NCBI GenBank assembly: GCA_021325275.1
Contig: JAJPHL010000030.1
Span: forward strand, 1 to 64,000
From: Terriglobia bacterium
GTDB lineage: Bacteria; Acidobacteriota; Terriglobia; JAJPHL01
Reading direction: 5' to 3'
Length of the DNA stretch: 64,000 nt
The notes below the pieces were generated by a model that saw nothing but the letters and a program-made list of their open reading frames with translations, made no database searches and was not told where the DNA came from. Shown in pieces: positions 2,290-46,004 of the stretch. Position numbers and translations under genes: made by a program. Position 1 is the first letter of the stretch. Each line of letters opens with the position of its first letter.

Positions 2290-4473
2290 TCAGTGGAGCA
2301 AGCGAGCGGAATCGTCGATCGCCTTCGCCATTGCCGTGAGCGCCGCGGCCGTCTCCACGATTTGCGCCTTCGCTTCCGCCCAATTCTTTTGCTCGATCGC
2401 TTCGCGAACGCCCGGCAGCGTCTTCACGCCGTAGCCGGTGTAGAATCCCGGCGCGTAAATCCGATGACGATACCATTCGCGGCGGGGAAGTCCTTTGCCG
2501 AGCAGCGAGCGCTCCACATGCAGCAAGGCCGCGTCGAGCGCGGCGGAGGCACCGGCGCGCGAAAGGTCCGCGCTACCGAGCGCGGTTTCGTAATCAGCGG
2601 CGCTCTTCTTCAGCGCGGTGATGCCGTCCTTGAGCGGTGCGAAATCGAGCGCCGGCGCCGAGGAATCCCGCGGCAAACGCTCCACTTCGTCGACGTAGCG
2701 GCCGGCGGTCTCGGCGAAATCGCCGAACTCGTAAGGGATCACGTCGGCGTCGGCCATGCGCAGCACCGCGGTGGCGGACGCTTGCGCCAGAGTGCGTCCG
2801 TAAATGAAGGTGGAGTCCGAAAACTTCGTGTACCACGTGAACGAATCGTAGATCGAGTGATAGATGCCCGCGGAATTTCCGCCGTCGCCGCCGAATCCGA
2901 AATTCGCCGAGGGCACGCCGAGATGTTGCAGGAACGGCGTGTAATCCGATCCGGAACCGAGCGCGCCAATGCGCAGGTCCTTGCGATCGCGATCCGCGGC
3001 GTCTTGGCCGCCGCGTCCGCCACGTCCACCGCCGCCGGTGGCGGGTCCCAAACCTTCGGGCGGCCCGATTGGACGCTCGCGATTCATCGCCAAGAGCGAT
3101 TTCCCGCTGTTCGGATCGTTGACGTCGCGTTCGAGTTCGTTGATGAATCGCTCAAGAATGTGCGATCCACCCGCGCCGAGACGTCCCTTTGCCGTTGTAT
3201 CGGAGTTGAGATAGAACACTCCGCCTTTGTCGAGTTCAGCGGCGTGCTTCTCCGCCCATTCCGTCGATCCGAGCAAGCCCCATTCTTCGCCGTCCCAAGA
3301 CGCGATGATGATTGTACGGCGCGGACGCCATCCGGTCTTCAGCAATTCCGCGAAGGCGTGCGCTTCTTCGAGCATCGCCGATTGACCGCTCAACGGATCG
3401 TCGGCGCCGTTCACCCAGGCGTCGTGATGATTGCCGCGCACCACCCAATCGTTGGGGAAATCCTTGCCGGGAATGCGCACGATCACGTCGAAAAGCGGAC
3501 GCAGCTGCCAATCGAAGGCGAGATGCATGTGCACAACGGCGGGTCCGGGCCCGGTGTGATACGTGGTGGGCAGCGCGCCCTTCCACGCTTCAGGCACAAC
3601 CGGTCCGCGAAGTTCCTTGAGGATCGGCAACGCGTCTCCGTAAGAAACCGGCAGCACGGGAATCTTCATCAGCGTTTTCGACTCCGCGCGCGTCAGCTTG
3701 CGACCGCCTTTTTCGCCCGCCCATCCGGGCGTGAGCGGATCGCCGGGATAGGTGGGCATGTCCATCACGCTGCCGCGCTGCACGCCTTGCTCGGGGCGAT
3801 ACGGACCCTCCGGGTAAACGTCGCCGCGCTCGTATCCGTCGTCGCGCGGATCGGAGTAGATGATGCAGCCGACCGCGCCGTGTTCATGCGCCACCTTTGG
3901 CTTGATGCCGCGCCAACTCGCGCCGTAGCGCGCCAAGACAATTTTTCCTTTCACGTCCACTTGCAGGCGCGCGAGTTCGTCGTAGTCCTCGGGACGTCCA
4001 TAATTCACGTAGACCACTTGCGCGGTCACGTCGCCGTCGGCGGAATAGGCGTTGAAGGTGGGCAGCTGCTCGGCGTCGGAAGAATCTTTGTCCTCGCTGA
4101 TGACCGGCTCTTTCAGTTGCATGCGATAGTGCGTGGGCGCGGTCATCTCGACGCTGCGCTCCTTCGGATAGGGCATCAGGGCTTCAAATTCCTCGAGGTG
4201 CGCATCGAGTCCCCAGGATTTGTACTTCGCCAGAATGTACTCCGCGACGCGCTTGCTGTTCGGATGTCCCGCGTGATGCGGCTCTTCGCTCATGAACTTC
4301 ATGGCGTCGCGGATGCGATCGGCTTGCGGCACGGCTTGGAGTTTCTTCTCGAGCTCGCGCTCGGCGGCAGCGTGCTGCGGCGAGAATCCGCGAATCGCGG
4401 TGTCGGGCGCGCTTTGCGAGAGCAGCAGCGCGGCGAAAAGAGCAGGGACACAAAGACGAAGTGTGCGTTTCAT
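2290..4473 (-). CDS. M28 family metallopeptidase, glutamate carboxypeptidase II-like
   Basis: From the ATG at 4473 the protein is about 727 residues and starts MKRTLRLCVPALFAALLLSQ, a clear signal peptide. The longer reading frame upstream adds 29 residues without signal character, so I chose this start. A PA-domain insertion (about 170-260) precedes the catalytic M28 part. The di-zinc site is recognisable: NHHDAWVNGADDP (His, Asp), WDGEEWG (Glu pair), LNSDTT (Asp) and a late YHSIYDSF (His). This layout is that of the NAALADase/PSMA (GCPII) branch, exported exo-acting peptidases that remove C-terminal residues. A secreted protein gene lies 90 bp upstream on the same strand. Confidence 0.88.
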   Translation of the reverse strand: MKRTLRLCVPALFAALLLSQSAPDTAIRGFSPQHAAAERELEKKLQAVPQADRIRDAMKFMSEEPHHAGHPNSKRVAEYILAKYKSWGLDAHLEEFEALMPYPKERSVEMTAPTHYRMQLKEPVISEDKDSSDAEQLPTFNAYSADGDVTAQVVYVNYGRPEDYDELARLQVDVKGKIVLARYGASWRGIKPKVAHEHGAVGCIIYSDPRDDGYERGDVYPEGPYRPEQGVQRGSVMDMPTYPGDPLTPGWAGEKGGRKLTRAESKTLMKIPVLPVSYGDALPILKELRGPVVPEAWKGALPTTYHTGPGPAVVHMHLAFDWQLRPLFDVIVRIPGKDFPNDWVVRGNHHDAWVNGADDPLSGQSAMLEEAHAFAELLKTGWRPRRTIIIASWDGEEWGLLGSTEWAEKHAAELDKGGVFYLNSDTTAKGRLGAGGSHILERFINELERDVNDPNSGKSLLAMNRERPIGPPEGLGPATGGGGRGGRGGQDAADRDRKDLRIGALGSGSDYTPFLQHLGVPSANFGFGGDGGNSAGIYHSIYDSFTWYTKFSDSTFIYGRTLAQASATAVLRMADADVIPYEFGDFAETAGRYVDEVERLPRDSSAPALDFAPLKDGITALKKSAADYETALGSADLSRAGASAALDAALLHVERSLLGKGLPRREWYRHRIYAPGFYTGYGVKTLPGVREAIEQKNWAEAKAQIVETAAALTAMAKAIDDSARLLH

Positions 4474-10487: not shown

Positions 10488-11312
10488 ATGACTTTCTTGC
10501 TTGGCGCTCTATTGAGTCTCGCATCCATCCGTGGACTCGCGACAACCGACTACTCGATTGAAGCGATCCGCTACGCCACTGTGAAAGACTTTCCCACGGC
10601 GGGCCTGATCATGGGCGCGCCGCGCGACCAGAAAACGGATATCGCCATGGTCGTGTGGCTGGTTCGCGGCGGCGGCAAGACCATTCTGTTCGACAGCGGA
10701 TTCCATCGCCAGAAGTGGATCGATCAATTCAACGTCAGCGATTTTCTCTCGCCCGACAAAGCGGTGCAGGAAGCGGGCGTCGACGCCGCGTCAATCACCG
10801 ACATCGTGATTAGCCACGCGCACTGGGATCACATGGGCGGCATCGACCTATTTCCCAACGCGACCATTTGGATCCAGAAGGCCGAGTACGAATACTACAC
10901 CGGCGCCGCGTGGCAGCCGGGCGGCAAGAAAGGCGGCATCGACGCCGACGATATCACCGAGCTTGTGAAGCGGAATCTTGCGGGCAGAGTTCGACTCGTG
11001 AACGGCGACAACGTGGAGATTTTCCCAGGGATCACGGTCTACACCGGCGCGCGACACACATTTTCGTCGCAATACTTGCGCGTGGCTGGCGAAAAACCGT
11101 ACGTACTGGCGTCGGACAATTGCTACACGTACGAAAACCTAAGGTCGCATCGCGCCAGCGCCACGTTTGAGACCGCCGATCAGCCGGGGAACATCGCGGC
11201 GCAGGAGCGGATGGTTCAACTGGCGGGATCGGCCGACCGCGTCGTGCCGGGTCACGATCCCGCGCAGTTTGAAAAGTTCCCGACCAAAGGGAGGGTCGCG
11301 AAGATTCAGTAG
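10488..11312 (+). CDS. Metallo-beta-lactamase-fold hydrolase, N-acyl-homoserine-lactonase-like
   Basis: The 274-residue protein has a hydrophobic start, MTFLLGALLSLASIRGLA, probably a signal peptide. The metal site is SHAHWDHMGG around residue 109, the HxHxDH motif. Later ligands are the His in YTGARHTFSSQY, the Asp in VLASDNCYTYEN and the His in VVPGHDP. The DSG...W..I spacing and the ARHT-x-SSQ pattern resemble AHL lactonases of the AttM/AiiA branch. Lactone-ring opening that degrades quorum signals is therefore the best guess, but many relatives hydrolyse other lactones. The gene ends at the edge of the fold-back repeat at 11312. Confidence 0.75.
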   Translation: MTFLLGALLSLASIRGLATTDYSIEAIRYATVKDFPTAGLIMGAPRDQKTDIAMVVWLVRGGGKTILFDSGFHRQKWIDQFNVSDFLSPDKAVQEAGVDAASITDIVISHAHWDHMGGIDLFPNATIWIQKAEYEYYTGAAWQPGGKKGGIDADDITELVKRNLAGRVRLVNGDNVEIFPGITVYTGARHTFSSQYLRVAGEKPYVLASDNCYTYENLRSHRASATFETADQPGNIAAQERMVQLAGSADRVVPGHDPAQFEKFPTKGRVAKIQ

Positions 11313-11676
11313 GACAGGCGTCCTCGCCGGCCGCCCCAAAGAGCCTGTGTGAAAAACTCGCCCCGAAGGAGTCTGCGGGACAATTCAGCCCCGAGCCTGC
11401 GGCAGCAGGCGGAACAATGTTAGCCCATGGCGAGGCGGTTTTTGCCGAGCCTGGGGACACTGTTGTTTCGAGTACGAGCCTGCAGCGCAGGCGGCACAGG
11501 CGAATCGGATGGCACGGTTGTCTGTGTCGCCAGCTCCGCAGGCTCTGCCCGCTAAGGATTACCCCAGGCTCGGCAAAAAACGCCTCGCCAGGGGCTAACG
11601 TTGCGCCGCCTGCTTCCGCAGGCTCGGAGTTGCGTTGTGACACAGACTCCCAACGGACAGGCGAGGACGCCTGTCC
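11312..11676. repeat. Large nested fold-back (inverted repeat) element
   Basis: This gene-free stretch forms three nested arms. The outer arm 11312-11328 (GGACAGGCGTCCTCGCC) is complementary to 11660-11676. A middle arm of about 66 bp, 11392-11457, matches the reverse complement of 11561-11627 with only a few mismatches, including GGCGAGGCG and GCCGAGCCTGGGG. An inner arm, 11478-11500, matches 11522-11545. Short GCCTGC-N3/4-GCAGGC palindromes recur inside the arms (11395, 11480, 11612). The reading frames crossing it on both strands are by-products of the symmetry. It could be a non-autonomous mobile element or a structured RNA; no transposase is nearby. Confidence 0.85.
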
Positions 11677-11683
11677 CACACTC

Positions 11684-11905
11684 CTACAGATCCACTTCCA
11701 CCACGTCGTCGGGGAACATGCCGTCGTCCATCATCGCCTGCGCGATTTGCGCGGCCGAAACATGGTAGCGGTTGGTGTCGATCAGGAAGCGGAAACGGTC
11801 CACCAAATCCTGGCGAACACCGTAAACGTCCGAAGACTGTTTCTCGAATTCATCCAACATCACCGCCGTGAAGCTCTTCTGCATTCTTACCGCTGATTTG
11901 CTCAT
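11684..11905 (-). CDS. Small FlgM-like protein (possible anti-sigma factor)
   Basis: The 73-residue protein is preceded by a very strong Shine-Dalgarno (GAGGAGG on the minus strand, 11916-11922), which supports expression. Its middle and end, from VDRFRFLIDTNRYHV to SAAQIAQAMMDDG, follow the pattern of FlgM-type anti-sigma-28 proteins: a helix, a G/N-x-Y turn, then a helix starting x-x-IA-x-x-M. The N-terminal part is short and polar. No flagellar genes are in the window, so a role against a different sigma factor or an unrelated function is possible. The assignment rests on pattern only. Confidence 0.5.
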   Translation of the reverse strand: MSKSAVRMQKSFTAVMLDEFEKQSSDVYGVRQDLVDRFRFLIDTNRYHVSAAQIAQAMMDDGMFPDDVVEVDL

Positions 11906-12061
11906 GTTGTTAGTTCCTCCTCACAGACATACATCGGCGGTCAGTGAGAGAACTTTAATCGTCGACTCATCGAACCCCAATAATTCGGTAAGTCGCTTTT
12001 TTACATAGGCTTGGTGGCTTTCTGGATCGTCAGGCGAGGTGCTGGGCCCACCGCGGAAGAG

Positions 12062-45636: not shown

Positions 45637-45731
45637 GCCCTCCTATTTGAGAGATGACAGCGGGCAGAGAGGGGTTTCTGGGGGAAAGTCTTGTGACTAG
45701 GACAGATGGACGGGCGAGAACGCTTGTCCTA

Positions 45732-46004
45732 CTAATCGTCCCAGCGGCGGCGCAAGCGGTGCCCCGGAGAGAGATCGACGCAAAGCGCGACAACCAATCC
45801 CACCACGGGCCACAGCGACCATTGGCCGTGCCACCAGTGCAGAACCGCGGTGTACCAGAGAAACGTCGTGGGAAGAAAAATAAATCCGACAATCGGAATT
45901 AGCGGACCGCGAAACAAGTGGTCGAACCACGGCGAAAAGAACCACACCAATAGGATCACGAGCCGCGGTGTCGCCAGTGCGATGATTCCGAGGATCAAGG
46001 GCAT
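45732..46004 (-). CDS. Small integral membrane protein
   Basis: From the ATG at 46004 the 90-residue product begins MPLILGIIALATPRLVILLV and has about three hydrophobic helices. It ends with a basic tail RRRWDD. The start lies 4 bp after the stop of the receiver-like gene, so the two are co-transcribed. No family recognised. The longer frame upstream (to 46238) only reads through the receiver gene in another phase. Confidence 0.6.
   Translation of the reverse strand: MPLILGIIALATPRLVILLVWFFSPWFDHLFRGPLIPIVGFIFLPTTFLWYTAVLHWWHGQWSLWPVVGLVVALCVDLSPGHRLRRRWDD

Follow-up and report, generated by a model that had tools for sequence, protein, structure and literature searches.

The window analysed here, a stretch of 64,000 nucleotides from a Terriglobia bacterium (Acidobacteriota; contig JAJPHL010000030.1), carries two convergent genes whose intergenic gap is filled by a fold-back: a metallo-beta-lactamase-fold (lactonase-like) gene on the plus strand (10488-11312; PF00753) and an FlgM-like gene on the minus strand (11684-11905; PF04316). 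The fold-back spans 11309-11679. An inverted-repeat scan places its outer arms at 11309-11328 and 11660-11679 (20 nt, 95% complementary) and a second pair at 11368-11456 and 11562-11650 (89 nt, 85% complementary). The nested arms described in the first-pass annotation are thus present, with a middle arm of 89 nt instead of about 66 and outer limits that replace 11312-11676. The outer arm had also been said to begin on the last base of the lactonase-like gene's stop codon; because it starts at a GTAG foot (11309) whose TAG is the stop, it covers the whole codon. Short GCCTGC-type palindromes do occur among the arms, and the suggestion that the whole stretch could form one structure holds: its single-strand fold has -264.9 kcal/mol, versus -155.4 (sd 5.8) in 100 dinucleotide shuffles (z -18.85), none of which equalled it.

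Layers of the fold-back and copies of its core

The fold-back consists of three layers, each a repeat family that also occurs alone elsewhere; in a module map of 51 sources, the order in the window reads G> A> A> [core] <A <G. The outer layer is a pair of REPs with the pattern GTRGGACAGGCN6GCCTGTCC: a GTAG-footed unit on the plus strand (11309..11333; 3 mismatches), in which the 3' side of the hairpin has decayed, and a complete GTGG-footed unit on the minus strand (11655..11679), identified by an exact pattern match and by the outer arm pair. The pattern has 4 matches in the window, where 0.03 are expected. A further GTAG-type REP of this family lies at 45708-45732 on the minus strand (2 mismatches). 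Genome-wide, GTAG REPs were counted with a loop of 5, versus 6 in the window's REP, so the family is undercounted there. The middle layer is formed by the 28-base repeat A (GCCCCGAAGGAGTCTGTGTGACAACTCA), with two tandem units on the left (11333..11387, plus strand, from the module map; the first is degenerate) and one inward-facing unit on the right (11628..11650, minus strand, from the module map and the alignment of copies). The 21-base heart of A matches the genome 50 times at up to 2 mismatches, and a reversed-pattern control matches it 0 times. The core (11388..11627, no strand assigned) is a gene-less inverted doublet of about 240 bases, each half of which is a chain of three hairpins.

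Following the first-pass suggestion to look for further copies, the organism's own genome (6.86 Mb, 75 contigs) was searched with the 365 bases, which gave 82 match rows and, among them, 15 long copies of the core. The 14 besides the window's are 78-94% identical on the better strand and are accompanied by many fragments, so the stretch is neither single nor unconserved. An exact 23-base pattern had 0 matches in the search of genome contigs. Aligned copies place the limits of the conserved core near 11388 and 11627, and the flanks are themselves palindromes, in which a target-site duplication would not stand out. Further out, the distal flanks of 10 of the 15 core loci (L018, L020, L021, L022 and L024 were left out) and of nine deletion derivatives of the C70 element described below do not resemble one another at E<=1e-5; therefore, the tested copies are not segmental duplications. 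The search for DNA relatives covered 60 further genomes of the class and returned nothing convincing, only two matches of 28-30 bases; no second genome from the same family came up.

But do core and A belong to one element? At the 15 loci with this core (core-1), all 24 called sides carry an inward-facing A (two sides at 9 loci, a single side at 6). A second interior, D (core-2), lies between inward A units on both sides at L029, L066, L067 and L068, with mixed arrangements elsewhere, and a third, E (core-3), lies between inward A units at L030, L034, L037 and L045. Such regularity would be expected of a single composite element with A as its true terminal repeat, whose interiors were exchanged between families with no nesting. 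We consider this improbable, if the best of the alternatives, since A behaves as a repeat in its own right: A pairs without a core occur at C10 and C52 (L028 and L061; 14 and 12 bases apart), A also forms tandem arrays and stands as a single unit at C35, and core-2 adjoins A units of the other orientation at L017 and L061. In addition, the C70 type has other brackets, and 0 of the 5 Y1 transposase genes in the genome are bracketed by A. REP dimers inserted in palindromes are on record from other species (PMC3733652, as far as that account goes), and nesting is therefore no novelty in itself; what this genome shows is a depth of two layers, together with A pairs that enclose no core.

A transposase element and its deletion copies

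One of these five Y1 genes links the core to a transposase. The tnpA gene at C70:298-735 encodes a protein of 145 aa with the motifs DHVH and YIRNQQQHH, which passes the NCBIfam IS200 model (59.2 bits, cut-off 55) and fails REP_Tyr_transpos (20.4 bits, cut-off 80). On either side of the gene lie inverted arms similar to those of the core (89% over 44 bases). In the window, the centre of the core (11500..11521, no strand) is where such a gene would be expected, and 11506-11545 is still similar to the bases immediately upstream of the C70 tnpA (83% over 40 bases). Long stretches of core and C70 element do not align, and the C70 element is therefore a relative of the core, not its direct parent.

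A search with the 731-bp C70 element recovered a graded series of internal-deletion copies in the same genome. One junction is common to six aligned copies (C70b, C30, C18, C46, C58 and C75), and C12 agrees with them in its breakpoint coordinates; a second junction is common to C68 and C59, and C7 has its own. As these junctions are shared at unrelated places, the simplest reading suggests that copying went on after the gene had been cut.

Other Y1 genes and doublets of this genome deserve mention. At L058 (C1:76165) and L059 (C40:70020), Y1 genes with the motifs YTHLNP and YVHQNP, read by eye, are flanked by inverted repeats of 85 bases (80%) and 32 bases (100%), respectively, as in TIRtrons. 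At L045 (C14), a tnpA relative (3243-3755) sits between three-hairpin arms and also has a copy of a 60-base repeat, 'O', on each side; it matches query residues 10-84 only and thus probably lacks the part with the catalytic Tyr. Another gene-less doublet, with arms 11 bases apart, lies at L058 3165-3363.

Three-hairpin ends across genomes and phyla

The arms share a grammar, A-H1-tail-TAGCCC H2 GGG-spacer-A-H3-tail, in which H1 is small, H2 is a long TAGCCC...GGG hairpin, and H3 is again small and followed by a short purine-rich tail, while the stem sequences differ considerably among arms. The core arms open with GAG before H1, and the GTAG/GTGG foot is confined to the outer layer. Chains of this kind face each other across tnpA genes with the Y---Q--HH motif: at 27 of 31 class tnpA loci, own genome included (32 minus L073, which has a short flank), the inverted arms are better than all 200 shuffles. 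A different insertion sequence, with inverted ends CACTGYTGTCCAAAA and an apparent 9-base duplication such as ACATTGTGC, joins at one and the same point between H1 and H2; 4 of 5 junctions of one of its ends and 3 of 3 of the other fall inside the elements described here (sites at C69, C45, the C2 end, C58, C48, C55, C60 and C10, that is L020, L021, L022, L039, L055, L027, L032 and L026). Targeting of REPs by insertion sequences was already known (PMC1525189, to the extent of that report).

From a triplet search that 34 of 41 arms passed, the 7 without a clean triplet being dropped, we kept 10 arms of 6 loci, some trimmed, for a covariance model built from other genomes only (R1). Up to E 5, R1 has one match in the window, the right half of the core (E 0.051). 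A second model (R2), built from 58 arms found by searching 30 sources of other genomes, has exactly two matches in the 64-kb window up to E 10, and these are the two halves of the core. The left arm (11393..11499, plus strand) corresponds to the right end of the transposase element (19.6 bits, E 0.0088) and the right arm (11522..11625, minus strand) to its left end (24.8 bits, E 6.2e-4); both score below the arms of C70 itself (52.4 and 44.4 bits). In 52 sources of the own genome, R2 has 73 matches. At E<=0.01, it finds at least one half at 14 of the 15 core-1 loci (none at L022) and both halves at 7. Both arms are found at all 10 called C70-type loci. R2 also shows the D and E interiors to be such doublets, so the genome holds several families of gene-less doublets. 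Two of the arm tests are partly circular, as it was a hairpin search that selected the hairpins and alignment A5 was fitted to the model; likewise, the count of two-sided changes in 15 of 19 hairpin pairs leans towards structure, because the R1 arms were chosen for hairpins and the R2 alignment was fitted to the structure.

Across the class, where no more than 14 candidates were scored in any one genome, R2 has matches at E<=0.001 in 144 of 299 genomes. It matches 63 of the 64 genomes with a tnpA (E<=1e-25) versus 81 of 235 without; once training genomes and the own genome are removed, the figures are 33 of 34 versus 81 of 235. The 81 genomes with R2 matches but no such tnpA may have weaker tnpA genes, may have lost the gene, or may represent false matches. 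A wider set of named loci comprises the best 80 of at least 583 encoding a relative, and their titles assign them to Planctomycetota, Verrucomicrobiota, Acidobacteriota, Bacteroidota and others. Among these best 80, 79 have the Y---Q--HH motif, 76 have an R2 match, and inverted arms are better than 100 shuffles at 67, versus 2 of 57 distal-flank controls; arms face inward on both sides at 47 and on one side at 21, and at 13 the gene has an outward arm beside it on one side or both. With a stricter triplet detector that uses no model, and for which loci with short flanks were dropped (76 of the 80 named and 30 of the 32 class loci were kept), the two arms are both detected at 23 of 76 named loci, with shuffles near 0, and at 19 of 30 class loci. 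Arms are also found in tandem, all in one direction, at L138 (Planctomycetes bacterium Pan216; 1005-1474, with a spacing of about 95 bases), L102 (978-2799), L152 and L173.

The position of the fold-back, filling the gap between convergent lactonase-like and FlgM-like genes, and the very stable RNA hairpin to be expected from it would also suit a REP/BIME-like bidirectional terminator or mRNA-stabilising hairpin, kept by the host for that job and immobile today. We regard this as quite unlikely. The long fold covaries weakly: only 7 of 91 long-range pairs show the compensatory, two-sided changes that the first-pass annotation had looked to for an RNA fold (12 copies in alignment A1, which leaves out L020-L022, cut by another insertion, from the 15 rows), and the RNAalifold covariation term is +0.51. 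With no convincing Rfam match, the structured transcript considered there finds little support. The Rfam search of 11000-12000 gave mir-939 alone, below threshold (20.6 bits, gathering 84). Moreover, a host-serving hairpin is at odds with 15 long copies that are scattered but lie in the same flanking repeat layers and with ends built like those of tnpA loci in other phyla, and it leaves the C70 deletion series unexplained. The first-pass annotation took the recurring palindromes to suggest growth by inverted duplication of a shorter unit; this is not the best reading, as the core halves correspond to the two ends of a transposase element and the outer layers belong to other, bracketing repeat families. 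A duplication of this kind through replication errors, without a transposase, would suit the similar arms and recurring palindromes but is very unlikely: the halves differ (85% over 89 nt), each corresponds to one end, left or right, of tnpA elements, and they are found again at unrelated sites.

We therefore favour, with a probability of roughly 80%, the reading that the core is a non-autonomous doublet consisting of the two ends of an IS200-like Y1/HUH element that lost its gene and is moved in trans by a related TnpA. The non-autonomous mobile element suspected at first sight agrees with the dispersed copies, with the C70 element and its deletion derivatives, and with the occurrence of such hairpin ends at tnpA loci in other phyla; movement itself we infer. 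Loss of the transposase gene would have brought the two ends together as a gene-less doublet. By analogy with IS608 and TnpAREP, as far as these are described in PMC8266576 and PMC2817692, the hairpins would be bound by TnpA where replication leaves the DNA single-stranded, after which the enzyme would cut the two ends and join them at a new site. In the window, the core sits in the centre of an older palindrome of inward A repeats, itself lying between GTAG/GTGG REPs. Palindrome centres may attract insertion, one possible reason being that the tip of a hairpin is exposed as a single strand.

Relation to known elements

Finally, we would like to place the core and its linked transposase among known systems. 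Like the REPINs of PMC3116915, the core is a gene-less inverted doublet of hairpins with many copies and a link to a Y1 transposase, and its arms in the window, one on each strand, form an inverted pair that folds into a hairpin. However, each half here comprises three hairpins, no GT[AG]G foot is found on the core arms, and YIRNQQQHH (Y---Q--HH) stands in the linked TnpA in place of the class-2 motif Y---NP. REPINs were proposed to descend from palindromes flanking an IS200-like ancestor (Bertels & Rainey 2011, PMC3116915, in the portion consulted). The features of a MITE are found as well: the core is short, multi-copy and gene-less, with inverted ends and a related transposase in the genome. 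A Y1 transposase between long inverted repeats is also the hallmark of TIRtrons (TIRYTs), some of whose repeats recur elsewhere in the genome and which include examples from Acidobacteria (Di Nocera 2013, PMC3733652, as excerpted). In the available part of Quentin 2018 (PMC6006769), 26 TIRYTs are assigned to subclasses 2.1, 2.2 and 2.5, whereas the proteins described here, with the TIRs themselves present, belong to class 1 by motif and PDB neighbours, the closest solved structures by sequence being the IS200/IS605 TnpA proteins 2xm3 and 2a6m. NF033573 is matched by 22 of 22 proteins at E<=0.001. IS608 and ISDra2, of the IS200/IS605 family, have no terminal inverted repeats according to the section seen of PMC2817692, and their hairpins are small and subterminal, in contrast to the long inverted chains found here.

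Judged by motif only, the linked TnpA fits subclass 1.2 of Quentin 2018: the set listed there, DH[IV]H, WQ and Y---Q--HH in about 148 aa, is found in the C70 protein of 145 aa, and low copy number is a further likeness. As characterised in that part of PMC6006769, subclass 1.2 occurs mostly in Cyanobacteria and Bacteroidetes, has no REP and generally lacks typical IS200 end structures; here, by contrast, we see long three-hairpin inverted ends and gene-less derivatives. In the open-access literature, preprints excluded and subscription journals mostly missing, we found no description of three-hairpin ends for subclass 1.2. More interesting than the single locus is that a class of transposases on record as having no such end structure should have a conserved one.

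The origin of REP and REPIN sequences from IS200-like transposons is an open question, as the consulted parts of PMC3116915 and PMC8266576 present it, and here a single genome holds a full transposase element, copies with partial deletions and gene-less doublets side by side. We give even odds to the broader proposal that the subclass 1.2 TnpAs are the transposases of phylum-spanning elements with conserved three-hairpin inverted ends, which shed doublets, show the step from an IS200 to a REPIN-like state in one genome and, by entering the centres of older palindromes, produce repeats nested like Russian dolls. Since the stages coexist in one genome and the same end accompanies this class of enzyme across many phyla, the pairing of enzyme and substrate is directly testable. 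The proposal would also provide an annotation for a large number of palindromic repeats between genes that are so far unexplained in Acidobacteriota, Planctomycetota and Verrucomicrobiota.
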